From: Nitrospirota bacterium
GTDB lineage: Bacteria; Nitrospirota; Thermodesulfovibrionia; Thermodesulfovibrionales; UBA6898
NCBI GenBank assembly: GCA_004321925.1
Contig: SCQH01000058.1
Coordinates: forward strand, 1-42,024
Length of the DNA stretch: 42,024 bases
Direction: 5' to 3'
A program made the translations under genes and the position numbers. Position 1 is the stretch's first letter. The number at the start of each line of letters is the position of its first letter. The notes beneath the pieces were generated by a model. The model was not told the origin of the DNA. It searched no databases and saw only the letters and a program-made list of their open reading frames with translations. This document shows positions 2,813 to 39,194 of this stretch, piece after piece.

Positions 2813-2833
2813 TGCACACATCCTTTCTATGCA

Positions 2834-4388: not shown

Positions 4389-4438
4389 TGGTAATGATCC
4401 AGAATATCCAATTTTTAAAAGGAAAGGTGGTGAAAAAG

Positions 4439-4876: not shown

Positions 4877-4886
4877 GCATTTTTTT

Positions 4887-4930
4887 AGCGGGGAGCCGAT
4901 GATGTGAGGCGGTTCCCCGCTTTTTTTTTT
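4887..4930 (+). terminator. Strong intrinsic terminator
   Basis: AGCGGGGA at 4887-4894 pairs with TCCCCGCT at 4914-4921, with further pairs inside, and is followed by a run of ten T. It lies just after the stop of the Lys/Ala-rich gene and before recQ. Confidence 0.93.
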
Positions 4931-4958
4931 GCCTTCTCCCCCTGTGTTACAGTATACG

Positions 4959-6803
4959 GTGAGCATTGACAGCAGATCAGATCAGACCTCCCTTCATAGC
5001 ATGCTCAGGACCATGTTCGGTTTTGAGGCCTTTCGTCCTAACCAGGAGACCATCATCAGGAGCATCCTTGACCGGCGGGACATCTTTGCCGTCATGCCTA
5101 CCGGGGGAGGCAAATCCCTCTGCTACCAGCTGCCGGCCATGCTGCTGACAGGCACAGCGGTCGTTGTCAGCCCGCTCATCTCGCTGATGAAGGACCAGGT
5201 CGATGCGGCCAATGAGAACGGCATACCGGCGGCCTTCATGAACAGTTCCCTGAATGCCGGTGAGGTGTCCGATGTCTACCGCAGGCTGAAATATAACAAG
5301 CTCAGGCTGCTCTATATAGCTCCCGAGAGATTTGCCCTGCCGCATTTCCAGGAAACGCTCAGGGAGGCTGCACTGTCCTTTTTTGCCATCGATGAAGCCC
5401 ATTGCATATCCGAGTGGGGCCACGATTTCAGGCCTGACTACCTCAGCCTTTCCCGGATCAAAGAGCTCTTCCCTTCTGTTGCCGTGGCTGCCTTTACCGC
5501 AACCGCAACAGAAAAGGTCCAGAGGGATATCATCACAAAGCTTGGCCTCAGGGACCCGCATGTCGTGCGGGCCTCCTTTGACCGGCCCAACCTTTTTTAT
5601 CAGGTCAGGCCGAAGGCGCGGGTGGACGTACAGATCCTCGAGTTCCTGAAAGATCATCCTGCGGAATCAGGTATCATTTACCGGACGACCCGTGACGCGG
5701 TCACGGCCACCGCACAATTGCTGAGGTCAAAGGGGATCGCGGCACTGCCGTACCATGCCGGCCTGCCTGCGGAAGAGCGCAGCAGGAACCAGGAGGCCTT
5801 TAATAAGGACGAGGTGCAGGTGATCGTGGCGACGATCGCCTTTGGCATGGGGATCGATAAATCGAATGTCCGCTTTGTCCTGCATGCCGATCTTCCGAAG
5901 AATATCGAGGGCTACTACCAGGAGACCGGCCGTGCCGGCCGTGACAGCGAGCCTGCCCAGTGCCTTCTTTTTTTCAGCAGGGGAGATATCCCGAAGATCC
6001 GCTATTTCATCGACTCCATGCCGGAGGCCGGCGAGCGTGCCATAGCGGTCGAGAAGCTGAACCAGGTCATCGGCTACGCAGGCCACAACGTCTGCAGGCG
6101 GCGGCAGCTTCTGGGCTTCTTCGGAGAGACCTATCCCCATGAGACCTGCAGCGGTTGTGATATCTGTGCAGGTTCGGTCGAGCAGGTCGATATGACCCTT
6201 GATGCGCAGATCGTTCTGGCTGCCCTCTCTGCCACGGGACAGCGGTTCGGGGCAGGCCACATCCTCGACCTTATCACCGGCGCCGACACAAAGCGCATGC
6301 GCGAACTCAGGCATGACCGGCTTGCGGCATACGGGACAGGCAGGGACAAACAAAAGAAATACTGGCGGTCTGTCCTTGACGAACTGCTTGCACAGGAGGC
6401 CGTCATGCAGGAGGGCGACCCCTATCCGGTGCTGAAGATATCGCCGAAGGGTTCAGGCATCCTTTCAGGCCGGGAACGGGTCACGGCCCTCAGGAAGGAA
6501 GAGGGAACGGCCCAGCCCCGAAAGAAGAAGCATGAGGGTGAGGGCTATGACGAGCTGCTTTTCGGGAGGCTCCGCTCCCTCAGAAAAACGATGGCGGAAC
6601 AACAGCACGTGCCGCCCTACATTATCTTTTCGGACAAGACCCTGCATGAGATGTCCCGCTCTTATCCCCGGACCCTCGAAGACATGAAGATGATCAGCGG
6701 CGTCGGTGAGGTGAAGCTCCAGCGGTACGGCAGGAATTTTGTTCAGGAGATAACGCAGTACCTCGGGGAATATCCGGCGGCGGCCGGGAGTTCCCGGGCC
6801 TGA
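4959..6803 (+). CDS. recQ: ATP-dependent DNA helicase RecQ
   Basis: This superfamily 2 3'-5' DNA helicase acts in recombination and repair. The product of about 614 residues has FGFEAFRPNQ near residue 20, Walker A TGGGKS near 48, DEAH in a typical RecQ context (AIDEAHCISEWGHDFRP) near 145, and the later helicase motifs AFGMGID and QETGRAGRD. An RQC zinc-binding region follows (CRRRQLLGFFGE with CSGCDIC). A C-terminal HRDC domain is recognisable from FSDKTLHEM and ISGVGEVKLQRYG. This is the usual full length and domain order. The start is uncertain: GTG codons at 4959 and 4944 and a TTG at 4929 are in frame, none with a good ribosome site. I chose 4959 because it leaves the usual short N-terminus. 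The gene follows a terminator and appears monocistronic. Confidence 0.95.
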   Translation: MSIDSRSDQTSLHSMLRTMFGFEAFRPNQETIIRSILDRRDIFAVMPTGGGKSLCYQLPAMLLTGTAVVVSPLISLMKDQVDAANENGIPAAFMNSSLNAGEVSDVYRRLKYNKLRLLYIAPERFALPHFQETLREAALSFFAIDEAHCISEWGHDFRPDYLSLSRIKELFPSVAVAAFTATATEKVQRDIITKLGLRDPHVVRASFDRPNLFYQVRPKARVDVQILEFLKDHPAESGIIYRTTRDAVTATAQLLRSKGIAALPYHAGLPAEERSRNQEAFNKDEVQVIVATIAFGMGIDKSNVRFVLHADLPKNIEGYYQETGRAGRDSEPAQCLLFFSRGDIPKIRYFIDSMPEAGERAIAVEKLNQVIGYAGHNVCRRRQLLGFFGETYPHETCSGCDICAGSVEQVDMTLDAQIVLAALSATGQRFGAGHILDLITGADTKRMRELRHDRLAAYGTGRDKQKKYWRSVLDELLAQEAVMQEGDPYPVLKISPKGSGILSGRERVTALRKEEGTAQPRKKKHEGEGYDELLFGRLRSLRKTMAEQQHVPPYIIFSDKTLHEMSRSYPRTLEDMKMISGVGEVKLQRYGRNFVQEITQYLGEYPAAAGSSRA

Positions 6804-6854
6804 TCAGGAGACCGCAGACCCCCTGAACAGACCCGGTCCTTCCGTGCTTGGGCC

Positions 6855-7247
6855 CTATTTGCCGATGCCGACATCCTGCGGGTGGAAGCTTGACAGGAGG
6901 GTCTTCCTGCCGGTGCAGACGCTGATGAACAGCCGTGCGATCAGGTCATGCATGATGATCGTCCTGGTATTCTTCGTCTTTGCCAGCGTGGCCTTGATAT
7001 TCTTTTTGAGCCTGCTGTCCCCCGACACCTCGATCAGGATGTCTATCTCCGCAACCTTCTTGACGAGATCCATCGGCTGGGTGGTCGTATAGATCTTATG
7101 CTTTTTGGCGAGCGTGACGCTTGGGGCCTTCGGGTCCTTATCGGCGACCCCGATGACCGTTACATATGAATACTTGATAAGTTCCTTGAGCAGGGGAGTG
7201 CCTGTCCTGCCCCCTCCGATCAATGCTACCGTAATCTTTTCTGCCAT
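6855..7247 (-). CDS. Small NAD(P)-binding Rossmann-fold protein
   Basis: The 130-residue protein starts MAEKITVALIGGGRTGTPL, with a glycine-rich dinucleotide-binding loop (GGGRTG) after the first strand. A second strand (VIGVADKDP) ends in Asp, which favours NAD over NADP. It corresponds to only the nucleotide-binding half of GFO/IDH-type oxidoreductases, with no C-terminal catalytic domain, so it may be a sensor or accessory protein rather than an enzyme. The start has AGGAGG about seven bases upstream. It is convergent with recQ and divergent from the selenoprotein gene. Confidence 0.75.
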   Translation of the reverse strand: MAEKITVALIGGGRTGTPLLKELIKYSYVTVIGVADKDPKAPSVTLAKKHKIYTTTQPMDLVKKVAEIDILIEVSGDSRLKKNIKATLAKTKNTRTIIMHDLIARLFISVCTGRKTLLSSFHPQDVGIGK

Positions 7248-7404
7248 GTTAAAGCCTCCTGGTATAAAATAGTTACGACCATTATAACCTGAACGACCAT
7301 ATTTTCATATTTAAAAAAGCATGACGGCAGCTCTTCAGCAGACGGTCCCTTGACTTCCCGCCTCCGGCAGACGGAAAATAAATAAAACGAACGAAGGAGT
7401 ATTC

Positions 7405-7716
7405 ATGAAACAGACAACACTGGCAGTCTCCCTTGTTTTGTCCAGCATGCTTTTGCTGAGCAGTGTGAGCGGGACTGCCCTGGCAGCCGACCGGACAATG
7501 AAGTTCAAAGTTCCCGGCATCACCTGAGCAAGCTCCGGCATTGCGGCAAGTTCTGCCGCCCAGTCGATCCCCGGTGTAAGCTTTGCGGACGACAACCCTG
7601 AGGATGCCACACTGAAGATCATCTTCGACGATTCAAAGACGAGCATCACGGAGATCAATGACGCCATGCAAAAGAGCGGCTTTCCGGTCTCCGGGGAACC
7701 TGTCCTGCTTCAATAG
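7405..7716 (+). CDS. MerP-like exported heavy-metal-associated selenoprotein (TGA at codon 41)
   Basis: The ATG at 7405 follows GAAGGAG and opens a signal peptide (hydrophobic core, then GTALAADR at residues 23-30). Codon 41 (7525-7527) is TGA, and the same frame continues 62 codons to a TAG at 7714-7716, giving 103 residues if TGA is read as selenocysteine. Both sides align from memory with mercury-binding MerP: before the TGA comes KFKVPGIT (MerP: VPGMT), and after it GVSF, IIFDDSKTSITEINDAM and SGFP (MerP: VTFDDAKTSVQKL, AGYP). The TGA sits exactly at the first Cys of the CxxC metal site, and the second Cys is Ser, giving UASS. The protein has no Cys at all. A hairpin follows the TGA. It would act in the periplasm, perhaps binding mercury or another soft metal, or in thiol/selenol redox. 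A weak promoter-like TTGACT lies at 7350. The alternative is a pseudogene, but the conserved downstream frame argues against that. Confidence 0.82.
7543..7559 (+). promoter_or_regulatory. Candidate bacterial SECIS hairpin
   Basis: GCGGCA at 7543-7548 and TGCCGC at 7554-7559 form a 6-bp stem with the loop AGTTC. The stem begins 16 bases after the TGA at 7525-7527, and the loop starts 22 bases after it with a G in its second position. This agrees in spacing and general form with bacterial SECIS elements, which lie in the coding region just after the UGA. The loop lacks the classical GGU, so the match is good but not perfect. Confidence 0.58.
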
Positions 7717-7729
7717 CAGGGCAGCAGTA

Positions 7730-8866
7730 TCATGCCCTGATGAACTGCATGACCTCTGCCTTGTTCTCCAGGTGATGCAGGGAGATGTTCGGCACGTCGC
7801 TGTTGCCTGGGACGGCGATCGCATGGATGAACCTCGGGCCCTGGCCGCGCCCCTGCAGGGCTGCGATCAGTTCTTTTTTCGAGGCGGTCTTAAGCGTATT
7901 GCTGATGCCGAACCCCCGTGCCACCGTCTCAAGGTCGACGCAGTCGCCTGTCAGCGTGGGCTGGTTGCCGGTAGAGCCGTATGCACCGTTGTCGATCGCC
8001 AGTATGGTCAGGTTTGCCGGTGCTGCAAACGCAGCAGTGGCAAGGGTCCCGGGGTTCATGAGCAGGCTTCCGTCCCCGTCAATGACCACGACCTCCTTGC
8101 TGGTCGACAGGCTGATGCCGAGTCCGATGGGGGTCGCCATCCCCATGCTGCCGAGCATATAGAAGTTTGACGGCTGATGCCTGACGGCAAAGAGTTCTTT
8201 TGACGGGATCCCCAGATTGCAGACGACGACCCTGGAGGCAAGGAACGGCGCCACTGCCTGTATGAGCTCAAAGCGCGTATACCGCGGAGATACCATGCTT
8301 TTCCTGGCCGGAGGCATTACGGGGATACTGCCTGCCGGGGGCAGGGGGCCTCTCCCCGCTTCTGTCCGGACGTTTGACCCTTCCCAAATGGCCGGACTCA
8401 GCAGAAAGGCCTGGAGCCTGTTCTTCCTGTAAGTCCCTGCCAGTTTTTTCCGTATGATGCTGAAGTCCTCTCCGGATCTGATCACCGAGCAGGGGATGCC
8501 GGCCGCCTGCAGCATCCGCGGCAGCCGCTGTCCCATCGGAAGCTGGGCCTCGATCCGCTCCTTATAGACCCCTCTCTGGCTGACAAAGAGCGCCAGGGGA
8601 AGTTCATAAAAGCCGTTGAGCGAGAGCAGGGCATTGAGCATGTTGCCGACCCCCGAGCTCTGCACGAAGAGGGCCGGCCTCTTCCCAGCCAGGGCGGCCC
8701 CGGCGCAGATGCCGGCGCCCTCCTCCTCACGCGTCAGGGGGAGGTGCTGAAAGCTCCCGGCAACCAGCTCCAGAAGGACCTTTATCTTTTCGCAGGGGAG
8801 TGAGGCCATAAAGTCCGTTCCCGCCTCATGAAGCAGCCCGATCAGTTCTTTTTCAGGACAGTGCAT
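7730..8866 (-). CDS. comDE: Fused sulfopyruvate decarboxylase ComDE (coenzyme M synthesis)
   Basis: This TPP enzyme converts 3-sulfopyruvate to sulfoacetaldehyde and CO2. Its 378 residues carry both subunits in one chain. The alpha (ComD-like) half covers about 1-165 with LTREEEGAGICAG (catalytic Glu near 47-49), QSSGVGNMLNAL and the segment RGVYKERIEAQLPMG. A linker of about 30 residues follows. The beta (ComE-like) half covers about 195-378 with NLGIPSKEL, NFYMLGSMGMA, the TPP motif GDGS...N from residue 264, and DNGAYGSTGNQPT. These segments match methanogen ComD/ComE closely as I remember them. GGAGG precedes the ATG. The start lies 25 bases inside cysteate synthase, implying translational coupling, and the gene ends the block. 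Phosphonopyruvate decarboxylase is the nearest alternative; the cysteate synthase neighbour favours sulfopyruvate. Confidence 0.92.
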   Translation of the reverse strand: MHCPEKELIGLLHEAGTDFMASLPCEKIKVLLELVAGSFQHLPLTREEEGAGICAGAALAGKRPALFVQSSGVGNMLNALLSLNGFYELPLALFVSQRGVYKERIEAQLPMGQRLPRMLQAAGIPCSVIRSGEDFSIIRKKLAGTYRKNRLQAFLLSPAIWEGSNVRTEAGRGPLPPAGSIPVMPPARKSMVSPRYTRFELIQAVAPFLASRVVVCNLGIPSKELFAVRHQPSNFYMLGSMGMATPIGLGISLSTSKEVVVIDGDGSLLMNPGTLATAAFAAPANLTILAIDNGAYGSTGNQPTLTGDCVDLETVARGFGISNTLKTASKKELIAALQGRGQGPRFIHAIAVPGNSDVPNISLHHLENKAEVMQFIRA

Positions 8867-10098
8867 AGCAGTTCCTCCAGCTCTTTGTCGGATGCCTTCT
8901 TTGAGATGGCCATAGGGACAACGTCCTTCACCTGTTTTTCCCTTCCGAGCCTCTTCTCACCGCCGCCGGTGATGTTCAGCAGAATGAGGTCCTCCGGCTT
9001 AACAAAACCTCCGGAAACTGCCTGCTTCAGAGCAGCGGTCGCCACGCCGGCCGCCGGCACAATATCGATGCCCTCTGTCGCGGCAAAAAGCTCCATGGCC
9101 GCATAGACCTCGTCATTGACGACCCCGTACATCCTTCCTCCGGCAGCCTTCATGACATCATAGACGCCGCCCTGGATCGAATATGCCGGGTAGCGGGTTG
9201 AAAGGACGCGCGTGGTGATCTCGGCGATCAGCTCAGGCCTCAGGTCTTCGGGGAAGAGCGTCCTGCTCTCTTTCTGCCAGGCCCTGACCATCGGGGCAAA
9301 GGGCAGGTTCTGTGCAAGATGCATCCGGGGCAGGACCTTACCGAAGCGTCCGTCCCTGATCAGCCGCTCCGACATCTCCCAGACGCCGATGCCTCCGGTC
9401 CCGCTCCCCACCGCCTGAAAATAGTGGTCAGGGAGCCTCCTGGTCTCTGCTACCGCAGCCAGTATGGTCGTACCGAGGCCGTCACGCTTGGCGATGTTCT
9501 TGACCCCTCCTTCAAACGGGAAGTTGAAGAGTCCGGCGATCCTGCGGGCGACGTCAATGGAGTCAGAATAATCTCCGTCGGTAACGGCAACGGTCGGCAC
9601 TGCCGAAGATTCTTCAAGGTACCACATCTCCTGGAGGCAGACGCCCGGAACGACGATGACGACCGGGTAGCCGGCAACCGTCGAGAGATGGGCAAAGGCC
9701 CGTGCCGTGTTCCCGGCCGAGGCCACGACCAGCCCGTCAATGCCGTTCTCAAGGGCATTCTGGAGCACGACAGCGGCCTCAAACTCCTTAAAGGTGCAGG
9801 TCTGAAGCCAGGCGCCCTGCTCCGGCCAGTAGCCGTTAAAGGCAATATAAAGGTTCCCGAGGCCAAGGGCGCTTCCGAGTCCCCGGGACCGGTAGACGAT
9901 CGTTCCGGGTTGCGCAAAAGAGGGGGTATGGACCGGCAGCCAGCGGTACTTCCATATGCCCTCGCCGCGATCGTCCCTGAATTCGGCGTCCTTGTAAACG
10001 GTCACCAGCAGCGCATCCATGCAGTGCTCGCAGAAGGCGCAGTAGACCTCGGTGAGTTCCTTGCCGCATTTTCTGCAGCGTATCGTAAAATGGCTCAT
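8842..10098 (-). CDS. Cysteate synthase (PLP-dependent, threonine-synthase fold)
   Basis: This enzyme makes L-cysteate from O-phospho-L-serine and sulfite, the entry to coenzyme M in Methanosarcina-type archaea. The 418-residue protein has an N-terminal zinc-ribbon-like set C8, C11, C20 and C23. Next comes NLYIAFNGYWPEQGA near residue 82, then TCTFKEFEA with the probable PLP lysine K104, VVASAGNTARAFA near 125, and DHYFQAVGSGTGGI near 225. It ends with ILLNITGGGEKRL. The GYWPExGA and DHYFQAVGSGTGG segments are characteristic of cysteate synthase and not of ordinary threonine synthase. The start overlaps the end of the HdrD-like gene by four bases, and its end overlaps comDE, so the three are coupled. 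No aspartate aminotransferase, needed to turn cysteate into sulfopyruvate, is in the window. Confidence 0.92.
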   Translation of the reverse strand: MSHFTIRCRKCGKELTEVYCAFCEHCMDALLVTVYKDAEFRDDRGEGIWKYRWLPVHTPSFAQPGTIVYRSRGLGSALGLGNLYIAFNGYWPEQGAWLQTCTFKEFEAAVVLQNALENGIDGLVVASAGNTARAFAHLSTVAGYPVVIVVPGVCLQEMWYLEESSAVPTVAVTDGDYSDSIDVARRIAGLFNFPFEGGVKNIAKRDGLGTTILAAVAETRRLPDHYFQAVGSGTGGIGVWEMSERLIRDGRFGKVLPRMHLAQNLPFAPMVRAWQKESRTLFPEDLRPELIAEITTRVLSTRYPAYSIQGGVYDVMKAAGGRMYGVVNDEVYAAMELFAATEGIDIVPAAGVATAALKQAVSGGFVKPEDLILLNITGGGEKRLGREKQVKDVVPMAISKKASDKELEELLCTVLKKN

Positions 10099-11321
10099 TG
10101 CTCTTCCCTTTCAATATATTCGGCAAATAGTTCCATGATGTCAACGATCGTTATTTTTTTGTCGTGGTCCTGCATGGCCTCATTGACCTTGCCATAGCAG
10201 GCTGGACAGCTCAGGACCAGCCTGTCGGCCTTTTTCCTGACCGCCTCATCGATCGCCAGTCTTCCGATGGCGACCGCATTGTCATGAAAGACCTTCCTGA
10301 CCGCGCCGCCCGCGCCGCAGCAGCGGGAATTCAGCCCATGCCGCTCGAATTCAAGGAGCTCCACGCCGGGGATGCTTCTGAGCACCTGCCGCGGCTCCTC
10401 GGTGATGCCGACCCCGCGGCTGAGATAGCAGGGGTCGTGGTAGATCAGCCTTTCGTGCAGCTCTTTTTTGACCCGGATCTTCCGCTTCCTGAGCGCGTCG
10501 ACGACGAACTGCGTGATATGCAGGACCCGGAACGGGAGTTCCTTTCCGTAGAACAGGGGCCAGTCCCTGGTCATGACGTTCACGCAGCAGGGGCAGGAGC
10601 AGAGGAGGGTCTTAACCCCGAGTGCCTTATAGGCCTCAACAAGTTTTCTGGTCAGCTCCTCCATAAGGTCATGCTGGCCCGATACAAAGAGCGGAAAGCC
10701 GCAGCAGACCTCTTCCTCCTCCGGAAGCATGGTGAACGGGTCTCCGATGACCCCAAGGACAAGGGCATCACCCCGCACCATCGGCTGGGCGCCGTAGGCC
10801 CCCGAACAACCGGCATAATAGGCCAGGTCGGCCCGCTTTGAGACCTTGACCGATTCAGGGAACCAGGGTCTGTACCTGTCAGCGGTCGGGAAGTTATACG
10901 GGTTGCCTGTCTTCTGTATCGCCTCCGGCATCTTGGTCAGGATCTCGTAATCGACCAGGCCGCGTTCTATCATCTCTTTGCGGAGATACGGCCAGAGCCG
11001 CTGCGTGAAGAGGCCGACCGTGCAGTGCTGGCCGCAGGCCCCGCAGGTGGTGCATTCAAAGACCGCCCGGGTGAATTCTTCAAGGAGCTTTTTGTCGATG
11101 TCCCCTTTTTTGAAAAGCCGCGCCTTGAGGCCGTTGGTCGCCTTGAGGAACTTCCGGAACATCCGTATCTTCTCAGGCGGTGAGACCGCAGGGTTCCCGG
11201 TCACCTCCTGCACCGGGCAGACCTTAAGGCACTCCCTGCACTGGCTGCAGGCATCGAGCTCTATCAGCTGCAACGCGGTCAGGCTGCCGCCAAACGAGGC
11301 GCTGCAGGGTTTCTTGCTCAT
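10095..11321 (-). CDS. HdrD-like heterodisulfide reductase catalytic subunit
   Basis: The protein has 408 residues. Two [4Fe-4S] motifs lie at the N-terminus: C25/C28/C31/C35 (CSQCRECLKVCP) and C90/C93/C96/C100 (CTTCGACGQHC). Two CCG domains follow. The first has YYAGCSG, EEVCCGFPLF and CSCPCC; the second has YHDPCYLSRG, SRCCGAGG and LSCPACYG. This is the order of HdrD of methanogens and of related DsrK/GlpC-type proteins. In HdrD the CCG domains hold the special cluster that splits a heterodisulfide. I chose 11321 because GAGGAG lies upstream and it avoids a 41-base overlap with the membrane subunit; the frame is open to 11375. With the HdrE-like partner just upstream, and coenzyme M genes just downstream, it probably handles CoM-related disulfide or thiol chemistry. 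Confidence 0.9.
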   Translation of the reverse strand: MSKKPCSASFGGSLTALQLIELDACSQCRECLKVCPVQEVTGNPAVSPPEKIRMFRKFLKATNGLKARLFKKGDIDKKLLEEFTRAVFECTTCGACGQHCTVGLFTQRLWPYLRKEMIERGLVDYEILTKMPEAIQKTGNPYNFPTADRYRPWFPESVKVSKRADLAYYAGCSGAYGAQPMVRGDALVLGVIGDPFTMLPEEEEVCCGFPLFVSGQHDLMEELTRKLVEAYKALGVKTLLCSCPCCVNVMTRDWPLFYGKELPFRVLHITQFVVDALRKRKIRVKKELHERLIYHDPCYLSRGVGITEEPRQVLRSIPGVELLEFERHGLNSRCCGAGGAVRKVFHDNAVAIGRLAIDEAVRKKADRLVLSCPACYGKVNEAMQDHDKKITIVDIMELFAEYIEREEQ

Positions 11322-30186: not shown

Positions 30187-31506
30187 ATGAGCCCATGTAT
30201 GAAAAAAATCAGAACTGGCCGGCCGGATTCTTCTGACAACGCATCCGGGACCGGCAGGCCACGGGAAAAGGATGTTGCAATTGATCTGCTCATGGCCGTT
30301 CTGGGTGGAAGGCGGGACGAGGTACCATCCGGACGGCTTCAGGACCTGCCTGCTGAGACATGGCACGCCTTCGTTGAAGAGGCGAACAGGCACCGGGTGA
30401 CGCCCCTGCTATACCACTATCTTTCTGCTTCAGCCGATGCAAAGCTTATCCCCGGTCCGGTCCTTCAGACAATGCGCAAGGCCTACTACCTCACGCTGGC
30501 CAGGAACATGCTCCTCTTTGACGGCCTTAAGAAGGCCCTCGCAGCCTTAAAAAGTGCAGGCATCCCTGCCGTGCCGCTGAAGGGCGCCCATCTTGCCCTT
30601 GCCGTATACAAGGACATTGGCCTGCGGCCGATGTCTGATATTGACCTGCTGCTGCGCAGCCGTGACCTTGACCAGGCCGTTCCTGCCCTGGCCGAAGCCG
30701 GCTTCCTCCCGGCCCGGAAATTTTTCATAGATGATCAGGTCCTTCTCCATCAGCACCTGACGCCCTTGCAGAGCAAAGAAGGGGTTGTCCTTGAGCTCCA
30801 CTGGAACATCTCAAATCCACTGGCGTCCCACCCTATCATGCCGGAGGAGCTTTGGGAGAGGGCCGAGGTCAGGCAGGTCGACGGGATGGACCTGCTCCTG
30901 CTCTGCCCGGAGGACCTCCTGATCCATATCTGCCTCCACGCCGCCCGCCACCGGTTTAATTTCGGACTTCTGCATCTTGCTGACATTACCGAGATCCTGG
31001 TCCGCCATGGAGAGACCCTGGATTGGGACAGGCTCTGCCTCACCGCCCAAAAGTGGCAGGCGACCAGGACGGTCTACCTCTGCCTGCTCCTTGCAAAGGA
31101 CCTGCTCGGGGCGGCGGTATCTGAAGCCCTGCTTGAGAGGTTCCGGCCTGCCCATGCTGAGCCTCAGCTCATGGCCTGGGCCCGTGAGCTTGTCAGGGAG
31201 GGCTGCTTCAATACAGTCCCCATGACCTTCAGCCTCCCGCAGGTGATGGCTGTCCGGACGCTCGGCGGCCGCATCAGAAAATTGCTGCAGATCTTATTGC
31301 CGGCGAAAAAAGTGCTTGCAATGCAGTATTGCGTGCGCTCAGATTCACCCCTTCTTTATTTCTACTACATCAAACGCCTGAAGGATATTTTTGCCAGGCA
31401 CACCGGCACGGTCCTGAGACTGACCCTAAAGGAAAAAAAGACCACTGAAAAATACGACCTCGTCTCAAAAGGAAACGCGGTCTACGAGTGGCTGTCAGGG
31501 GCCTGA
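30187..31506 (+). CDS. Nucleotidyltransferase family protein (NTP_transf_5 type)
   Basis: The 439-residue protein has the signature LKSAGIPAVPLKGAHLA near residue 130, then LRPMSDIDLLL near 155 (the DxD metal-binding pair of the nucleotidyltransferase fold). ELHWNIS near 205 and HICLHAARHRF near 240 follow. Proteins of this type are regularly found with PqqD, HPr-kinase-like and signal-peptidase-like genes in peptide or polymer biosynthesis loci; the substrate is unknown. A TATAAT at 30162-30167 may be its promoter. The ATG at 30187 has no strong ribosome site, and an ATG four codons later is an alternative. Confidence 0.88.
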   Translation: MSPCMKKIRTGRPDSSDNASGTGRPREKDVAIDLLMAVLGGRRDEVPSGRLQDLPAETWHAFVEEANRHRVTPLLYHYLSASADAKLIPGPVLQTMRKAYYLTLARNMLLFDGLKKALAALKSAGIPAVPLKGAHLALAVYKDIGLRPMSDIDLLLRSRDLDQAVPALAEAGFLPARKFFIDDQVLLHQHLTPLQSKEGVVLELHWNISNPLASHPIMPEELWERAEVRQVDGMDLLLLCPEDLLIHICLHAARHRFNFGLLHLADITEILVRHGETLDWDRLCLTAQKWQATRTVYLCLLLAKDLLGAAVSEALLERFRPAHAEPQLMAWARELVREGCFNTVPMTFSLPQVMAVRTLGGRIRKLLQILLPAKKVLAMQYCVRSDSPLLYFYYIKRLKDIFARHTGTVLRLTLKEKKTTEKYDLVSKGNAVYEWLSGA

Positions 31507-31548
31507 TGCTGTCAGACGTTAGGTGTAAGACGTGCGGTGTTAAAACAT

Positions 31549-31607
31549 TTCACGCTTCACGCTTTACGATTCACGACCGTAAGCACGCTTCACGATTCAC
31601 GGACCGT
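31549..31607 (+). repeat. Intergenic heptamer repeats (TTCACGN)
   Basis: Between the nucleotidyltransferase and PqqD genes lie six near-identical heptamers: TTCACGC, TTCACGC, TTTACGA, TTCACGA and, after a short interruption, TTCACGA and TTCACGG. They may be a dispersed intergenic repeat of this genome or a binding array upstream of the PqqD promoter. Confidence 0.68.
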
Positions 31608-31616
31608 CAGTCAGTA

Positions 31617-31644
31617 TTGATGTTTTCCGGGATCTTTGTATAAT
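31617..31644 (+). promoter_or_regulatory. Sigma-70-type promoter of the PqqD/radical SAM operon
   Basis: TTGATG at 31617-31622, a 16-base spacer and a perfect TATAAT at 31639-31644. The predicted start is about 31651, one base before the PqqD ATG, which has no ribosome site, so the transcript looks leaderless. Confidence 0.68.
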
Positions 31645-31651
31645 CTAATTT

Positions 31652-31939
31652 ATGGACCTCTCAGCCGACAGCATCCTCAGAAAAAATGAAAAGGTCGTCT
31701 TCAGGAAACTCGGAGGGGAGTACGTCCTCGTGCCTCTGTCGTCGTCTGTGGCCGATGTTGAGGCCATCTTCAATCTCAACGAGACCGGGGCGTTCGTCTG
31801 GGAGAGGATCGACGGCAGAAGGAGGCTCGGCGAGATACTTGAGGAGATGAAGGCGGAATACGAGGATGATGGCCGGCTCGAAGCCGACGCCATTGCCTTT
31901 GTTGCCGAGATGCTCGAAGCCAAACTGCTGGAGGTCTGA
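31652..31939 (+). CDS. PqqD-like peptide-binding chaperone (RRE domain)
   Basis: The 95-residue protein has the PqqD fold pattern: a strand-rich N-terminus (VVFRKLGGEYVLVPL), then FNLNETGAFVWERIDGRR, and a C-terminal helical part ending FVAEMLEAKLLEV. In peptide-modification systems this domain binds the leader of the precursor and presents it to the radical SAM enzyme. The stop overlaps the ATG of the radical SAM gene (TGATG), so the two are coupled. Translation probably starts on a leaderless mRNA. Confidence 0.92.
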   Translation: MDLSADSILRKNEKVVFRKLGGEYVLVPLSSSVADVEAIFNLNETGAFVWERIDGRRRLGEILEEMKAEYEDDGRLEADAIAFVAEMLEAKLLEV

Positions 31940-33060
31940 TGCAGACCCTGGCATACAACGATCTCAGCGGGAAGATCCGGGCCGCCTCTGTTAATAAACG
32001 TATTCCCCTGTACGGGATGATCGAGGTCACCCGGCGCTGTCCTCTTACCTGTGTCCACTGTTACAACAATCTGCCGCTTACCGACCGGGAGGCGGCCCAA
32101 AATGAACTCTCCCTTGACGAACATTGCCGCATCCTCGATGAGATCACTGATGCCGGTTGTCTCTGGCTCGCTTACACCGGCGGAGAGATCTTTGTCAGGG
32201 AGGATTTCCTTGAGATCTATGCGTATGCCCTGAAAAAGGGCCTCCTTGTCACGCTCTTTACGAACGGCCTTCTGCTCACTCCGGAGATAGCCGACTATCT
32301 GGCCAGGCATCGGCCTTACGGCATCGAGATCACTCTCTACGGCGTCACCCGGGAGACCCATGAGCGGGTCACCGGGGTCCCCGGTTCTTTTGACCGGTGC
32401 ATGGAGGCTGTCCGGCTCCTCACCTCGCGCAGGCTCCCGCTGACCCTCAAGACCATGGCCCTGACGATCAATGAACACGAGCTCTGGCAGATAAAGGCCT
32501 TTGTGGAAGAGGAGCTGGGGCTGCGTTTCAGGTACGATCCCATGATAACCCCGCGCCTCGACCGTTCCCGGGGACCGCTTGCTGTCCGGCTCTCACCGCG
32601 CAGGGTCGTCGAACTGGACATGCATGACCCGCGCATCAGGTCCGAGTGGGGGAAATATGCAGAAAGCTGTGTCAGTGCCCAGCGGTCCGAAACCCAGGTC
32701 TATTACTGCAATGCCGGGATCACCGGCTTCGGCATCGATCCTTACGGGGGTCTGAACGTCTGCCTTTTTTCGCCGGGAGGCAAATATGACCTGCGGACCG
32801 GGAGTTTCCTGCAGGGCTGGGAAGGTCTGCTCAGGCAGGAACGCATCCGTTCAATATCGAAACAGACGAAATGCACTGCCTGCGGCATAAGGGAGATCTG
32901 CGGCATGTGTCCGCCCAACAGTGAGCTCGAAGAAGGCGGACCTGAGAATCCGGTGGACTTTTTCTGCGAGGTGGCCCATCTAAGGGCCCGGGCCCTCGGC
33001 CTTTCCGTAAAACCCCATGGTAAATGCGCCTATTGCAGTTCTTCCGGAAATAATATATAA
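31939..33060 (+). CDS. Radical SAM/SPASM peptide-modifying enzyme
   Basis: The protein has 373 residues. The radical SAM motif is CPLTCVHC (C34, C38, C41), with YTGGEIFVREDF near residue 85 as the SAM-binding GGE. The C-terminal SPASM region has VYYCNAG, LNVCLFSPGG, CTACGIREICGMCPP near 315 and FFCEVA, then an extra CAYC near the end, giving enough cysteines for two auxiliary clusters. With the coupled PqqD gene before it and a small Cys-containing peptide gene after it, the likely job is modification of that peptide (thioether or C-C crosslink, or epimerisation); the chemistry cannot be read from sequence. Confidence 0.95.
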   Translation: MQTLAYNDLSGKIRAASVNKRIPLYGMIEVTRRCPLTCVHCYNNLPLTDREAAQNELSLDEHCRILDEITDAGCLWLAYTGGEIFVREDFLEIYAYALKKGLLVTLFTNGLLLTPEIADYLARHRPYGIEITLYGVTRETHERVTGVPGSFDRCMEAVRLLTSRRLPLTLKTMALTINEHELWQIKAFVEEELGLRFRYDPMITPRLDRSRGPLAVRLSPRRVVELDMHDPRIRSEWGKYAESCVSAQRSETQVYYCNAGITGFGIDPYGGLNVCLFSPGGKYDLRTGSFLQGWEGLLRQERIRSISKQTKCTACGIREICGMCPPNSELEEGGPENPVDFFCEVAHLRARALGLSVKPHGKCAYCSSSGNNI

Positions 33061-33146
33061 TGTAAATAGTATATAAAAGCCTGAATATGCGGCTTTAATA
33101 TAATAATTATAATTAATTTGATATAATGATTGCAGGAGACTGAAAG
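33061..33146 (+). promoter_or_regulatory. AT-rich spacer with hairpin and promoter-like boxes before the precursor peptide gene
   Basis: AAAGCC at 33076-33081 and GGCTTT at 33091-33096 form a 6-bp hairpin just after the radical SAM stop. It is followed by a strongly AT-rich stretch with two TATAAT boxes (33099-33104 and 33122-33127). GGAGA lies before the peptide ATG. This suggests the peptide gene has its own promoter or that mRNA processing gives it higher expression than the enzymes. Confidence 0.45.
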
Positions 33147-33329
33147 ATGGACCAGGGACAGGAAAAAGAGGCATCTCAGAAGAAACCATATCTCGCCCCT
33201 AAGGTGATGGTCGTTCACCTGACCCCTGAAGAGGTCTCCCTCGGCGCCTGCAAGGCTCTCTTCACCTCCCAAGGCAGCAGGTCTCCCGGCCAGTTGTGCA
33301 GTTTATGCGGCGGGGCCCTCGGTTCATAG
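33147..33329 (+). CDS. Candidate RiPP precursor peptide (60 residues)
   Basis: The peptide starts MDQGQEKEASQKKPYLAPKV and continues MVVHLTPEEVSLGACK. The charged N-terminal part with KKPYLAPKV and the LTPEEV element looks like a leader recognised by a PqqD-type domain. The C-terminal part has three cysteines, C35, C51 and C54, among Gly, Ser and Leu (QLCSLCGGALGS), and would be the modified core. It directly follows the radical SAM gene and has a good ribosome site (AGGAGA). No family name is assigned. It could also be a small structural protein, but size, composition and position support a precursor. Confidence 0.75.
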   Translation: MDQGQEKEASQKKPYLAPKVMVVHLTPEEVSLGACKALFTSQGSRSPGQLCSLCGGALGS

Positions 33330-33352
33330 GGATATCTTCATACGGATACTCT

Positions 33353-34303
33353 ATGAATATACCCGGATCCATAATGTCTGAACCGGCGCATGCTGTTCTT
33401 GACAGCGGTCCATCCAGGGGCTTTTTGTTAAAGATCGGCGGCCTTATGCTTTCTGTCACCGGTGACGGCACGTTCCCTCTCGGGGTCGAAGGTGAGAAGA
33501 CAAAATTCATTGTTTCCGAAGGTCAGGCCGACATAAGCCTCAGGGCCTTTCTTGGCAGGCTCCCTGCGCTTTCTGCAGACGAAATTGTTTTTGACGCCGG
33601 CCCTGTCTGGCAGCTCTATCGTCACAAAGGGGCATATCTCTTCAGTTTCAGTTCGCTCTCTTTCGGGCCCGGTCCGTATAAGCTTGCACTCATCGACCAG
33701 GCCTTCTCCCGGGGCGAGGTCTATGTCCATCCCGATTTCCAGGGGCCGGGCCAGGAGGTCGATCCTCTCTGGAGCCCGCTCGATCAGCTGCTGATCAGCA
33801 GCATGCTCGGCCGGGGCAGGGGGGCCGAGATCCATTCCTGCGGGGTCATCGACAGCCAGGGTTCCGGACACCTCTTTGTCGGGGTCTCAGGCGCAGGCAA
33901 GACCACCATGGCAAGGCTCTGGCAGGGGCTTCCGGGGGTCTCGATACTCAGCGACGACAGGGTCATCCTGCGCCGCTTGGAAGGAAACATCCGGATGTAC
34001 GGCACGCCCTGGCATGGGGAAGGGGGCATGGCCGCGGCTTCAGATGCCCCCCTGAAACGGATATATTTTCTGAATAAGGCAGACCAGAATGCGCTTCAGC
34101 CCCTGAAAGGCGCCGGCGCAGCGACACGTCTTTTTTCCTGCTGTTTCCCGCCTCTTTACGACCGGGAGGCAGTGGATTATACGCTCGGGTTCCTGGGCCA
34201 GGTGGCTCAGGAGGTCCCCTGTTATGAACTGAGCGTCTTTCCTGATGAGAGGGTGATCGGGTTTATTAATTCCGTAACAGAGAGCGGAGGGAGCTCATTA
34301 TGA
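33353..34303 (+). CDS. HPr-kinase/phosphorylase-like P-loop protein of the RiPP-like locus
   Basis: The protein has about 316 residues from the ATG at 33353. The Walker A loop GVSGAGKTT lies near residue 185 after an N-terminal domain of roughly 170 residues, and ILSDDRVIL near 212 resembles the HprK Asp region. The end has FLGQVAQEVPCYEL. It is related to the HprK-like kinases that accompany PqqD and nucleotidyltransferase genes in what has been called the HPr-rel-A system. The frame is open upstream to 33296, overlapping the peptide gene; 33353 avoids that, but no start has a clear ribosome site. Its stop overlaps the next ATG (ATGA). Confidence 0.85.
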   Translation: MNIPGSIMSEPAHAVLDSGPSRGFLLKIGGLMLSVTGDGTFPLGVEGEKTKFIVSEGQADISLRAFLGRLPALSADEIVFDAGPVWQLYRHKGAYLFSFSSLSFGPGPYKLALIDQAFSRGEVYVHPDFQGPGQEVDPLWSPLDQLLISSMLGRGRGAEIHSCGVIDSQGSGHLFVGVSGAGKTTMARLWQGLPGVSILSDDRVILRRLEGNIRMYGTPWHGEGGMAAASDAPLKRIYFLNKADQNALQPLKGAGAATRLFSCCFPPLYDREAVDYTLGFLGQVAQEVPCYELSVFPDERVIGFINSVTESGGSSL

Positions 34304-37300
34304 TAAAGAAGATATCTTCAAATAGATGGCCCGAAGCGTTTCATCCGGGCAGGGTGATCCTTTCATTGTTCTTCCTCCTCCTCCTGCTCTTTGCTGCAGC
34401 AGGACCGGCGTATGCGCTGAATTGCATTTCAGCCGGCACGGGGACCTGGACAGCCATCACCTGGACCAACTGTGCCGGTAATCCGGGCGGTGATCCGGCA
34501 GCAGGCGATACCGTGACGATCGCGAATGGCACCACGGTCACTGTAAATGCAAATACCGCCAACCTTGCCGGTCTCACTGTCAACGGGACACTCACGATCG
34601 GCAATAACGGCACGGCCAGAACGGTGACAGTTTCCGGGAATGTAACAAATACCGGTACAATTCAACCTGGAGCGAACAATGCCGCCCATGTGTTGATCAT
34701 CAGTGGCAATTTTACGAACAATGGCACGTTCAGCGGCCGTCCAACTGCAAACCGCGTTATCAACGTAACATTCAACGGAGCAGCCAATCAAACGGTCAGC
34801 GGCACAGGAGCCACCACTGCGTTCAACAACATCACGATAAACAACACCGGCGCTGCCAACAATAACATTGTTGAGATCGCGTCCACCGCTTTTACTGCAA
34901 ATGCAGGGTTCCTCACGCTCACCCGCGGAGTGCTCAAGATGTCGGGGACATATGCTTTCAGTAATGCATTTTTTAATGCAGCAGCATACACCATCCCGGT
35001 TAATGGCGGGATCTGGCTGAACAACGCCAACGTCACGGTGACCGCCCAGGCCGGGACGGTGACGCTGAACGGCCTGCTCCGGGTCGACGCAGGGACATAC
35101 AACGTCGGGACGTTAAACTCCCATCTCATCCAGTACGGAAACGGGGCAGTGTTTACGATGGGCGGCGGCAGCCTCAACCTTTCGGGCGGCTTCAGCCCTG
35201 TTCTGGTCGCCAATACCATCACCTATACCCAGAGCGGCGGCACCTTCACCCTCGCCACCCAAGGGACCAATTCCAATACGCGGGCAAGTTTCGACATAAA
35301 CAACGCCGGCTCGTCCTTTACGATGAGCGGCGGGACTATCATCCTCCAGAGGATGAACGCTCAGACCTATTCCGATTACCGCAACATCGCCGGCACCGTG
35401 AACATTACCGGCGGAACGCTCCAGATCGGCAACGCTTCGACCCCTGCGGCCCAGATCTACTGGATCGGCCAGCCCACAGAACCTGCAAACAGTGTCCCGA
35501 ACCTTGTTGTCAGCTCTACCAATTCGCCTGTCGTGCGCACCAAGGTGGCAACAACGGTTTACGGAGGCGTCACCATCAACACCGGCGCAACGCTCGACTG
35601 GAACGGACAGGATATCAACCTGAGCGGCAATTGGTCTAACAGCGGCACCTTCTCAAACACCGGCACAGCAGGCGTCGGCACCGTGACCTTCAACGGCACG
35701 ACAGCCCAGACCATCGGCGGCACCTCGTTAACAGCCTTCAATAACCTGACCGCATCCAACGCGGCCGGTGTTACGCTCAACAGGGCAACGACCGTAACCA
35801 ATGCCCTGTCGATAACCTCCGGCACCTTTGATCAGGGGGCTGCGAACAATCTGACTGCCGGATCGGTCTCGATCAGTTCCGGCGCCACGTTCCAGAACAC
35901 CGGCACCGGCAGCCTCACCCTCGGCGGCAACCTTGTCAATAACGGGTTATTTAATCTTGATGGCGGAGGCGGAGGCTGCAATGCGGGCGACGTGCAGATA
36001 GCGCTCACCGGCGCGGCCACACGGAACTGGTCCGGGAGCGGGGCCTTCCAGCTCTTCAATGTCAGCCTGACCAATCAGAATGCCTCAGGCATCGGCACTA
36101 TCGCTGCCTTCGGCGGCACGGACAACGGCGGCAACTCCGGTTTCCTTTTTGATATCTGTGCCAACGCACCGACAGCCGTCAAACTCATCTCCTTCGATGC
36201 CACGAACCACAACGGCAAGGTCGTCATCCAGTGGAGGACCGGGCATGAGGTGAATAACCTCGGCTTCAACCTCTACCGGCAAGGGCGAGGAGTGAGGCAT
36301 CTTATTACGCCGCAGCCGGTCGCTGGCTCTGCCCTGATGGCAGGGCCTGGCATTGCCCTCTCCGGCGGCAAGCCGTACACCTGGGTTGACGATCTTTCTC
36401 TGGGGCCTCAGGCCTCATCCGCCGGGACTGCCACATATTGGCTCGAGGACCTGGACCTCAACGGGGAACGCACCCTCTACGGCCCGATCACCGCAACGGA
36501 TGCTGAGACACCGCTTCCGGCGATAGAACAGGCAGCGACGCTGGGCCAATTGTCAAAACTGCAGGCTGCCGGCTCGAACGCCCCTCTGTCACTTCAGCCG
36601 AGACTATCAGTGACCCCTGCCCCTGAAGCAGTAGCAGTAGCGCTGAGCGCCCCTCCGTCTCCGCAGCAGCTGCAGTGGATACTGGCCAATGCTTCTGCGG
36701 TCAAGATATTCATACAAACAGAGGGCTGGTACCGGATAACCCAGCCTGAGCTGGCAGCTTACGGATTCGGCAACGTCGACCCTGCCAACCTGCAGCTGTA
36801 TGCCGGCGGCAGGCAGGTGCTGCTTAAACAGAGGCCGGGGAGCAGCTGGCGTTTAGCGCCTCAGGATTATATCGAGTTCTATGCAAAGGGGCTCGACACC
36901 CCATCGACAGATGTTCAGACCTACTGGCTGGTTTTGGCCACAACAAAAGGCCAGCGCATACCGCTCGTCTACGGGGGCACAACTGTGCCGCAGCCCTCCG
37001 GCTTCGCCTTCACAACAGAGGCTCGGCCGAGGGTGCTCTATGCCCCGGCCCTCCCGAAGAACAGCAACGGTGATAAGTTCTACGGACCTGTCGTCTGGAC
37101 AGACCCCGCGGTTGTAAAGCTGGATGTCCGGCATCCTGATACGGCAGCCACTGCCAGGGCGGTGCTTGAGGTCTCCCTGCAGGGAATCATGGACGGGGAG
37201 CACAAGGTCGGGGTCATCCTCAACGGCAGCCAGGTCGGCCAGGTCGTCTTCAGCGGAAAGACTAAGGGGAAGGCCTCGCTTCAGTTCAGCCAGTCCGGGT

Positions 37301-38712
37301 CCCTGCGGGAGGGCGAAAACGTTCTGCAGTTAATAGGCCAGGGCAGCGCCATGGACCTGAGCCTGCTTGATGCGGTCAGATTGACCTACCAGCATGCCTA
37401 TACGGCCGACAGCGACAGCCTGCGTTTCACTGCTAACGGGGGCGGCAGTATCGCGGTCGGCGGCTTCAGCTCCCCGGAGATTAGGGCAGTTGACATCACG
37501 GACCCGAACTATCCGCTGGAATTGCCCGTAAAGGTTGCGGCGCAGGGGATGGTCAATACCGTTACCGTCAGTGTCCCTATGACCGGGGTCCGGACCCTGC
37601 TGGCCTTTACCACACCGAATAAACCTGCGGCCATGACAGCCAATAACCCCTCGACACTGAATGCAGCGGCTAACGCGGCAGACATGCTGATGATCAGCAC
37701 GAGCGATCTCATGGGGGCTCTTGCCCCGCTTAAGCAGCTGCGGGAAGGCCGTGGACTCTCGGTCTCCCTTATCGATATCGAGGACATTTACGACGAGTTC
37801 AGCTTCGGGAATAAGGACCCCCGGGCGATCCAGGACTTTCTCCAGAGGACCTCACTGGCATGGAAAAGGCATCCGCGTTTTGTGCTGCTGACCGGAGATG
37901 CAAGCGTTGACCCCCGCGATCACCTCGGCTTCTCTCATCCGGACCTTGTTCCGACGAACCTTGTCGAGACGGCCTTTAACGAGACCGCATCGGACGACCA
38001 GTTTGCGGACTTCAATAGTGACGGGATTCCTGAAATGGCCCTCGGCCGTATCCCGGCAGGCACCTCTGCCGAGGCAGCCGCCGTTGTCTCGAAGATCATC
38101 GGTTATGAGAAGCAGCAGGAAGACACGTCCTGGACAGAGAAGGCGCTGCTGGTATCCGACAAAGGCAGCCCCGATGTCTTTGATTTCGAGACCGCCAGCA
38201 CAGAAGTGGCCGGACTGCTTCCTTCCGGTTTTGCGCTGGACTCGGTCTACCTCCGCGATTACGCCGGCGGTGCTGCAGCCGGTCAGGCCATCCTCAACAG
38301 CATCAACGAGGGCGTCCTGCTGGTGAACTATATAGGACATGGCTCAGAGGACACCTGGGGCGGCGATCTCTTCACCGCTGCCTCTGCGGAAACGCTTACC
38401 AACGGCCTGAAACTGCCCTTCTTCATCAACATGACCTGCTGGAACGGCTGGTTCCCCAACCTCTATACCGTGACCCTGGCCGAGACGCTGTTAAAGACCG
38501 CGCAGGGCGGCGCGGTGGCGGTCTGGGCCTCCTCCGGCCTGACAGAACCGGACAGACAGCTCATCATGAACAAGGAGCTGATGCGGCTCCTCTTCGACGG
38601 CAGAGGACTTACCATCGGTGAGGCCGCAGCAGCGGCAAAGGCGGCTGTCGGCAATATGGATGTCCGGCGCACCTGGATCCTCTTCGGGGATCCCGCGACA
38701 CGGTTAAAATAG
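34300..38712 (+). CDS. Large secreted protein with beta-repeat region and C-terminal C25 (gingipain-type) peptidase
   Basis: The protein has 1470 residues with a signal peptide (hydrophobic core 19-35, AYALN near 40). Residues about 45-620 are Asn/Gly/Thr-rich beta-strand repeats (repeated VTFNGTxxQTxxG and AFNNxTxxN), the pattern of a beta-helix adhesin. A region opening KLISFDATNHNGKVVIQWRT near 630 is a fibronectin-like domain, followed by further beta-rich domains. The last 350 residues are a C25 cysteine peptidase: ADMLMIST opening, GDASVDPRD, catalytic H1347 in NYIGHGSEDTWGG and C1380 in NMTCWNGWF, ending WILFGDPATRLK. No C-terminal sorting domain follows. Gene coupling (ATGA) to the HPr-kinase-like gene places it in the peptide locus, where it could cleave the precursor outside the cytoplasm or be itself a modified surface protein. 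Confidence 0.93.
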   Translation: MIKKISSNRWPEAFHPGRVILSLFFLLLLLFAAAGPAYALNCISAGTGTWTAITWTNCAGNPGGDPAAGDTVTIANGTTVTVNANTANLAGLTVNGTLTIGNNGTARTVTVSGNVTNTGTIQPGANNAAHVLIISGNFTNNGTFSGRPTANRVINVTFNGAANQTVSGTGATTAFNNITINNTGAANNNIVEIASTAFTANAGFLTLTRGVLKMSGTYAFSNAFFNAAAYTIPVNGGIWLNNANVTVTAQAGTVTLNGLLRVDAGTYNVGTLNSHLIQYGNGAVFTMGGGSLNLSGGFSPVLVANTITYTQSGGTFTLATQGTNSNTRASFDINNAGSSFTMSGGTIILQRMNAQTYSDYRNIAGTVNITGGTLQIGNASTPAAQIYWIGQPTEPANSVPNLVVSSTNSPVVRTKVATTVYGGVTINTGATLDWNGQDINLSGNWSNSGTFSNTGTAGVGTVTFNGTTAQTIGGTSLTAFNNLTASNAAGVTLNRATTVTNALSITSGTFDQGAANNLTAGSVSISSGATFQNTGTGSLTLGGNLVNNGLFNLDGGGGGCNAGDVQIALTGAATRNWSGSGAFQLFNVSLTNQNASGIGTIAAFGGTDNGGNSGFLFDICANAPTAVKLISFDATNHNGKVVIQWRTGHEVNNLGFNLYRQGRGVRHLITPQPVAGSALMAGPGIALSGGKPYTWVDDLSLGPQASSAGTATYWLEDLDLNGERTLYGPITATDAETPLPAIEQAATLGQLSKLQAAGSNAPLSLQPRLSVTPAPEAVAVALSAPPSPQQLQWILANASAVKIFIQTEGWYRITQPELAAYGFGNVDPANLQLYAGGRQVLLKQRPGSSWRLAPQDYIEFYAKGLDTPSTDVQTYWLVLATTKGQRIPLVYGGTTVPQPSGFAFTTEARPRVLYAPALPKNSNGDKFYGPVVWTDPAVVKLDVRHPDTAATARAVLEVSLQGIMDGEHKVGVILNGSQVGQVVFSGKTKGKASLQFSQSGSLREGENVLQLIGQGSAMDLSLLDAVRLTYQHAYTADSDSLRFTANGGGSIAVGGFSSPEIRAVDITDPNYPLELPVKVAAQGMVNTVTVSVPMTGVRTLLAFTTPNKPAAMTANNPSTLNAAANAADMLMISTSDLMGALAPLKQLREGRGLSVSLIDIEDIYDEFSFGNKDPRAIQDFLQRTSLAWKRHPRFVLLTGDASVDPRDHLGFSHPDLVPTNLVETAFNETASDDQFADFNSDGIPEMALGRIPAGTSAEAAAVVSKIIGYEKQQEDTSWTEKALLVSDKGSPDVFDFETASTEVAGLLPSGFALDSVYLRDYAGGAAAGQAILNSINEGVLLVNYIGHGSEDTWGGDLFTAASAETLTNGLKLPFFINMTCWNGWFPNLYTVTLAETLLKTAQGGAVAVWASSGLTEPDRQLIMNKELMRLLFDGRGLTIGEAAAAAKAAVGNMDVRRTWILFGDPATRLK

Positions 38713-38735
38713 AGCGAAGCCTGCGGGAGAATGCG

Positions 38736-39194
38736 ATGATAACCTCTAAAGACATTTCAGAGCTCCTTCTGACAGACGGTTTTGATGTCCGCATGCATGC
38801 GGCCGGGGCATCCATGTTCCCGGTCATCAGCAGCGGCGACAGGATCATCGTCAGCAGGGAAAGAGAGTATGCTGCCGGGGATATCGTTGTCTTCCGGAGG
38901 AACGATATCCTGGTCTGCCACAGGATCATAAAGATATACGAGACAGACGGCATCAGATATTTTCGGACCCGGGGGGATTCCTTCCTCAGTCCTGATGAGC
39001 CGGTGCCTGCCGGCCAGGTCCTGGGGAGGGTCGTCCGGATCGATAAAGAGAGCACTTCCCTCAGGAGGAAGGTCCTCCTCTGGCTGTCCCCCGCTCTTCA
39101 TTTCGGAAGACTGAACGCCTTTGTCGTATCAGCCCTGGTCTCGATCACAAATCTGTTTGCGGTTCCTCATAAAACCCGCTCTCTTCTGAAATAA
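38736..39194 (+). CDS. Sec11-like signal peptidase (S26 family)
   Basis: The protein has 152 residues. The nucleophile Ser is in GASMFPVI near residue 26, GDIVVF is near 48, a His in ILVCHRIIKIY near 60 and RGDSFLSPDEPV near 85. The Ser-His-Asp arrangement is that of archaeal/ER-type (Sec11) signal peptidases rather than the Ser-Lys bacterial type. The C-terminal part has one hydrophobic segment. GGGAGA precedes the ATG, 23 bases after the C25 peptidase. Signal-peptidase-like genes are regular members of PqqD/HPr-kinase-like loci and may mature the peptide or its carrier. Confidence 0.88.
   Translation: MITSKDISELLLTDGFDVRMHAAGASMFPVISSGDRIIVSREREYAAGDIVVFRRNDILVCHRIIKIYETDGIRYFRTRGDSFLSPDEPVPAGQVLGRVVRIDKESTSLRRKVLLWLSPALHFGRLNAFVVSALVSITNLFAVPHKTRSLLK

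Follow-up and report, generated by a model that had tools for sequence, protein, structure and literature searches.

A radical SAM cassette with a three-cysteine precursor and an HprK-like kinase: an apparently unrecognised family of modified bacterial peptides

The DNA analysed here, referred to as the window, is a stretch of 42,024 nucleotides from a Nitrospirota bacterium (assembly GCA_004321925.1, contig SCQH01000058.1). A first-pass annotation had listed seven genes between positions 30187 and 39194, and an ORF check together with family scans found all of them where it had placed them. The locus comprises the following features:

30187..31506, plus strand: NTP_transf_5 nucleotidyltransferase-like protein (PF14907, 205 bits)
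31652..31939, plus strand: PqqD-type RiPP recognition element, RRE (PF05402, 64 bits)
31939..33060, plus strand: radical SAM/SPASM peptide maturase (PF04055 and SPASM cysteines)
33134..33139, plus strand: ribosome-binding site AGGAGA of the precursor gene, 7 nt upstream of the peptide ORF (from the sequence)
33147..33329, plus strand: precursor peptide of 60 aa, with Y15xxP18, Cys35, Cys51, Cys54 and a C-terminal Gly-Ser (78-member alignment)
33237..33326, plus strand: predicted core peptide, with the leader putatively cut at about V30/S31
33353..34303, plus strand: HprK-like kinase, with its start at 33353 or 33374 (long ORF 33296-34303; 62-member alignment and AlphaFold2)
33833-33835, 33881-33907 and 33953-33958, plus strand: H180, P-loop and D220/D221 of the HprK-like kinase (numbering of the ORF from 33296)
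34300..38712, plus strand: secreted C25 (PorU/gingipain-like) peptidase with an N-terminal signal peptide (PF01364, 271 bits)
38338 and 38437, plus strand: predicted catalytic His1347 and Cys1380 of the C25 peptidase (homologue alignment)
38736..39194, plus strand: Sec11-type S26 peptidase without an N-terminal anchor (TIGR02228; Ser26, His62, Asp81/Asp87)

In the window sequence, the stop codon of the PqqD gene overlaps the start codon of the radical SAM (rSAM) gene, and both PqqD and the C25 domain were found once in the genome, within the window. Short degenerate TTCACGATTCACG-type repeats occupy positions 31520-31640, just before PqqD, where a promoter-like TTGATG-16-TATAAT is also present; promoter-like sites, taken together, stay within what chance would give. 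The minus strand at 2834-3883 encodes a further radical SAM protein, which is only a distant relative (E 2.6e-38 against the family profile).

With the peptide as query, related genomes yielded homologues that adjoin the same set of enzymes. When GTDB representative contigs were scanned with an alignment of the radical SAM enzyme, 80 loci emerged, and a peptide profile built from these loci and from a phylum search retrieved 78 distinct precursors, of which 55 come from loci found through the rSAM. Among the 10,465 ORFs of the collected loci, the profile has 64 matches below 1e-5, and the matches that were inspected all lie within the rSAM cassette, mostly between rSAM and HprK. The precursor alignment shows a Y..P leader motif (Tyr15 in 76/78, with Trp in 2, and Pro18 in 78/78), three near-invariant cysteines (Cys35 in 78/78, Cys51 and Cys54 in 77/78 each) and a lysine, Lys36, that follows Cys35 in 71/78, together with a highly variable stretch between the cysteines of the core. 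The last residue is Ser in 69 of the 78 precursors (Thr in 5, Pro in 3, Tyr in 1), compared with a C-terminal Ser in just 7.8% of 844 other ORFs from the same loci, and this is the only conserved serine of the alignment. In eight close peptide pairs, dN/dS ranges from 0.06 to 0.5. Its homologues and their conservation mark the 60-residue ORF as a genuine gene and not a chance reading frame.

A gene-encoded precursor with a conserved leader and a variable core, placed beside predicted modifying enzymes, is the hallmark of RiPPs, and the locus has each of these elements. The proposal of a RiPP cassette with its own three-Cys precursor finds strong in silico support in the leader motif, the near-invariant cysteines and the recurrence beside the rSAM. 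Pfam and NCBIfam scans of 49 precursors returned no family, with single, unrelated weak matches only, and the peptide cassette appears to represent a family of modified bacterial peptides that has gone unrecognised. One 3-kb locus (L034) holds, besides its precursor, a small Gly/Cys-rich ORF on the minus strand (215-433), which has a Y..P motif and ends in Asp.

Of the 80 loci that carry an rSAM of the family, 65 showed a precursor. Six close loci in which it at first seemed missing were re-read from stop to stop: five have a precursor, all five ending in Ser, and one (L042) is without. In the remaining precursor-less loci, the rSAM is distant, stands alone with no other cassette gene (L094) or is cut off by the end of the contig (L095). 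The first-pass annotation had reasoned that its interpretation would fall if homologous loci consistently lacked the small peptide gene; such loci were looked for, and this objection fails because only L042, out of about 70 cassettes with a sequenced slot, lacks the peptide.

The gene order PqqD-rSAM-peptide-HprK(-S26)(-NTP5) recurs in about 19 phylum-level bacterial groups, a count that follows MAG titles and is subject to possible mis-binning. The 65 precursor-bearing loci include PqqD in 61, HprK in 59, S26 in 48, C25 in 30 and NTP5 in 22, all lower bounds owing to contig ends; the absence of NTP5 and C25 from many cassettes counts against the explanation that we favour below. In plasmid collections, the rSAM and HprK proteins had distant matches only. 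Several variants of the arrangement were observed. In a second Nitrospirota family (f29), loci L119 and L120, to which a precursor match in L118 can be added, show the order PqqD-rSAM-rSAM-precursor-HprK-rSAM-NTP5-S26, with three rSAM-profile matches; the precursors of this group have ‘Cys-Ser’ in place of ‘Cys-Lys’ and a C-terminal DSGPR[AQP]S, and one genome of the family (G172) is a single-contig chromosome. Loci L102, L103 and L112, from Coatesbacteria and Elusimicrobia, have the order HprK-PqqD-(S26)-rSAM and different Y..P peptides, again with a terminal Ser, and locus L123 (genome G005, 1750-10519) contains two adjacent PqqD/rSAM/HprK sets beside an ABC-exporter-like ORF.

The radical SAM enzyme carries C34, C38 and C41 (CX3CX2C) and the SPASM cysteines C257, C275, C312, C315, C321, C324 and C343, which are kept in 64-67 of 67 homologues. 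Its relatives in the PDB include PqqE (6c8v) and SkfB (6efn). For no characterised maturase model does the enzyme come near the curated cut-off, which we count against our preferred explanation: the AhbD, MftC and PqqE models give 87-103 bits, and the sactipeptide maturase models fall short with AlbA at 69 of the 850 bits required, StsB at 67 of 625 and SkfB at 51 of 300. The second-best NCBIfam match of PqqD is lasso_PqqD_Bac, also below its cut-off. The near-invariance of the three cysteines argues for a central rSAM step, in a set of loci that was itself collected through the rSAM, and the Cys-containing core is probably cross-linked by this enzyme, most likely through Cys-based thioethers.

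For the HprK-like protein, family scans found a P-loop and weak matches to HprK_rel_B and ScmC. Its AlphaFold2 model (pLDDT 89.5) adopts the PEPCK/HPrK-P fold, matching PEPCK 1xkv (Z 14.2, 256 aligned, rmsd 5.2) and HPrK/P 2qmh (Foldseek E 1.2e-4), and its alignment keeps H180 and K202 in 62/62 and D220 and D221 in 60/62 each; by its fold, catalytic His, P-loop Lys and Asp pair, the protein belongs to the HPr kinase/PEPCK superfamily. The low pLDDT (<50) of residues 1-37 of the long ORF points to 33353 or 33374, and not 33296, as the probable start of the gene, which would then be without overlap with the peptide gene. HprK occurs in nearly all cassettes, so that the collected loci offer hardly any contrast of serine conservation with and without the kinase, a point that we count against our explanation. 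In the lasso clusters of paeninodin and pseudomycoidin, HprK homologues phosphorylate the C-terminal Ser and a nucleotidyltransferase adds hexoses (PMC8498205). By analogy, the C-terminal serine is probably phosphorylated by the HprK-like kinase, and the phosphate is perhaps glycosylated, as NTP_transf_5 may transfer a glycosyl or nucleotidyl group. The choice of phosphosite rests on the lasso kinases, since the HprK-like kinase of the linear polyphosphorylated peptides (LPP; lppAKBSDN of Paenibacillus alginolyticus, Bacillota, described in 2026) polyphosphorylates Ser3 of the core and not the C-terminus (PMC13381572). Four kinases have an altered DDR motif, and three of these, changed to EDQ or DEY, come from Chloroflexota loci (L073, L075 and L101) in which the peptide has a terminal Pro or Thr, a pairing within one lineage that fits a coupling of kinase and peptide end.

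The S26 peptidase scores 54.1 against the archaeal-type signal peptidase I model TIGR02228, above the curated cut-off of 51.85. Ser26, His62 and Asp81 are conserved in 42/42 aligned sequences and Asp87 in 32/42, and the structural model has a signal-peptidase/LexA fold with a long C-terminal helix that matches SipA 4n31 (Z 12.8, 93 aligned, rmsd 2.5); the Ser-His-Asp active site and the SPase fold are those of a type I signal peptidase of the Sec11 type. The enzyme had been regarded as an export signal peptidase, an assignment made less likely by the lack of any hydrophobic segment, and hence of an N-terminal membrane anchor, before the catalytic Ser, so that a cytosolic leader peptidase is more likely. 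In LPP, where the leader motif is YxxPxVLxHQxIxFETxxS, an SpI-type Ser/His/Asp peptidase removes the leader with the assistance of the RRE (PMC13381572). The Glu at Y+14 of the precursor aligns with the Glu of the FET cleavage motif of LPP, which predicts a cut at about V30/S31.

Like PorU, the sortase of type IX secretion, the C25 protein of the window has a C25 domain with a His-Cys dyad (present in 30/30 homologues covering it) and matches PDB entry 6za2 (E=5.5e-18). It differs from PorU in its N-terminal region and, at 252 bits, does not reach the PorU cut-off of 420, although it does belong to the C25 family itself. The description of this peptidase as a dedicated one holds in that C25 is a recurrent part of the cassette, but it is an optional part, present in fewer than half of the precursor-bearing loci. 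In most loci C25 lies upstream of PqqD, and it lies downstream of precursor/HprK in the clade of the window and some Chloroflexota. On a quick rSAM tree the C25 label changes 11 times, at least 6 of them forced by well-supported branches, which means repeated gain or loss of the association. Of the 11 C25 domains in 27 genomes from the family of the window, 9 are found on the same contig as a precursor at a distance of at most 5 kb; the remaining two lie close to contig ends, and so does the precursor in those genomes. A Lys-specific cleavage by C25 after the conserved Cys-Lys was considered and rejected, since loci L073 and L075, with ‘Cys-His’ peptides, also have C25 and no correlation between Lys and C25 remains. 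The export part of the earlier interpretation fares less well: no conserved exporter was found among the cassette neighbourhoods, which we count against our own explanation too, and an MsbA-like ABC gene is near only 10 loci, one of them also with C25 (Fisher p 0.014, uncorrected for relatedness). In our best reading, the C25 peptidase would act outside the cell.

A cassette, a precursor family, intact active sites and a conserved C-terminal Ser can be read from the DNA, and we consider it probable, with good though not full confidence, that they belong to a RiPP pathway combining RRE-guided rSAM modification, serine phosphorylation, leader removal by the S26 peptidase and an extracellular C25 step. 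The PqqD-type RRE would bind the 60-aa precursor by its Y..P leader and hand it to the radical SAM/SPASM enzyme, which would modify the Cys-containing core, most likely by Cys-based thioether cross-links. The HprK-like kinase would phosphorylate the C-terminal serine, on whose phosphate the NTP_transf_5 protein may put a sugar or nucleotide. The RRE would then offer the leader to the anchorless Sec11-type peptidase for a cut at about V30/S31 and, after export, the secreted PorU-like C25 peptidase would trim the product or join it to a surface acceptor. We infer all of this chemistry for the organism of the window, above all the rSAM product and the role of C25; RRE-YxxP binding, Ser polyphosphorylation and S26-type leader cleavage have been established by experiment, in Bacillota relatives only.

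A bolder version, in which the cross-linked peptide with its C-terminal Ser phosphate or phosphosugar is attached to the cell surface by C25 acting as a transpeptidase, and which would define a separate RiPP class, is in our opinion unlikely. Somewhat less credit still goes to the notion that the cassette is a member of the LPP family with an accessory rSAM, making a linear peptide whose main modification is phosphate. The common RRE, HprK, S26 and NTP-transferase module, the Y..P leader and the Glu at the LPP cleavage-motif position speak for it. However, the full LPP leader motif is absent: what the two leaders share is limited to YxxP, the Glu at Y+14 and a hydrophobic residue at Y+5; the three near-invariant Cys imply a central rSAM step (with the same proviso on how the loci were collected), and LPP have been reported only from Bacillota (PMC13381572).

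PQQ and mycofactocin systems likewise pair PqqD with a PqqE/MftC-like radical SAM/SPASM enzyme, and an intracellular peptide-derived redox cofactor or signal of that type would agree with the scores against the AhbD, MftC and PqqE models and with the lack of a conserved exporter. Such a product is nevertheless very improbable, given a variable core between the Cys and a kept C-terminal Ser, unlike PqqA or MftA, the co-occurrence of a secreted C25 peptidase, and 81 neighbourhoods with no recurrent oxidoreductase. Some relatives adjoin exopolysaccharide genes (L008/L062, L039), as could be expected if the target of the rSAM and kinase were not the peptide but, say, a polysaccharide or the C25 protein, with the small protein serving only as carrier or regulator; the peptide, however, nearly always adjoins the rSAM, its leader motif belongs to a type with proven RRE binding and its kinase-type C-terminal Ser is kept, which makes this the idea to which we give hardly any weight.

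If the RRE-guided, radical SAM-modified and phosphorylated peptide that we favour is correct, phosphorylated RiPPs, until now demonstrated in Bacillota and kinase-bearing lasso clusters, would extend to about 19 mostly uncultivated phyla and would gain both a PorU-like peptidase and a step catalysed by a radical SAM enzyme. Neither Pfam nor NCBIfam has a profile of the precursor; the one built here makes the family minable and testable at once, and the relatives with complete chromosomes in the second Nitrospirota family may offer tractable hosts. Should the transpeptidase role of C25 hold true, surface-anchored modified peptides would be expected in many uncultivated phyla.

Among known systems, the SynChlorMet cassette (NCBIfam TIGR04248-04251) combines a PqqD-like ScmD, an HprK-like ScmC and the radical SAM/SPASM proteins ScmE and ScmF, and it is not known to have an identified precursor. 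The window cassette shares its PqqD-like, HprK-like and radical SAM/SPASM components, whereas SynChlorMet has two rSAMs, and the scores stay below the SynChlorMet cut-offs (ScmD 26.6 bits of 100, ScmC 23.6 of 125, ScmE 77 of 400). With the sactipeptide maturases SkfB, AlbA and StsB the window has in common a radical SAM/SPASM enzyme and a Cys-rich core, at the below-cut-off scores given above. The likeness to lasso clusters of the paeninodin type extends to the RRE, a [Y/W]xxP leader, the HprK homologue and the nucleotidyltransferase, and their pairing of a precursor ending in Ser with an intact kinase active site recurs here. The window cassette differs from them in having an rSAM and three conserved Cys. 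The asparagine-synthetase-like cyclase and the B2 protease of those clusters were not seen among the cassette genes or annotated recurrent neighbours.

A close parallel in gene content is LPP, in which a discrete RRE binds the YxxP leader and the operon includes an NTP transferase and an MsbA-like exporter, with no radical SAM enzyme and no C25 (PMC13381572). Both systems have an RRE, a YxxP leader, an HprK-like kinase, an archaeal-type SpI peptidase and an NTP transferase, the RRE, kinase and peptidase lying in one cluster. LPP clusters are further defined by an exporter and by the absence of any other core-modifying enzyme; the window operon, in contrast, has a radical SAM/SPASM enzyme, a C25 peptidase and no exporter. 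Sets of PqqD, HprK and nucleotidyltransferase are accordingly not known by association only, as had been stated, since phosphorylation and RRE-guided leader cleavage were demonstrated in LPP (PMC13381572) and, before that, in paeninodin-type lasso peptides (PMC8498205). Our literature search, of partial coverage, found no description of a peptide cassette with rSAM, PqqD and HprK, and an earlier description is possible. To the RRE/kinase/S26/NTP-transferase module known from LPP, the window cassette adds an rSAM and a C25 peptidase. In our best reading, the cassette is a radical-SAM branch of the phosphorylated RiPPs and not an LPP.
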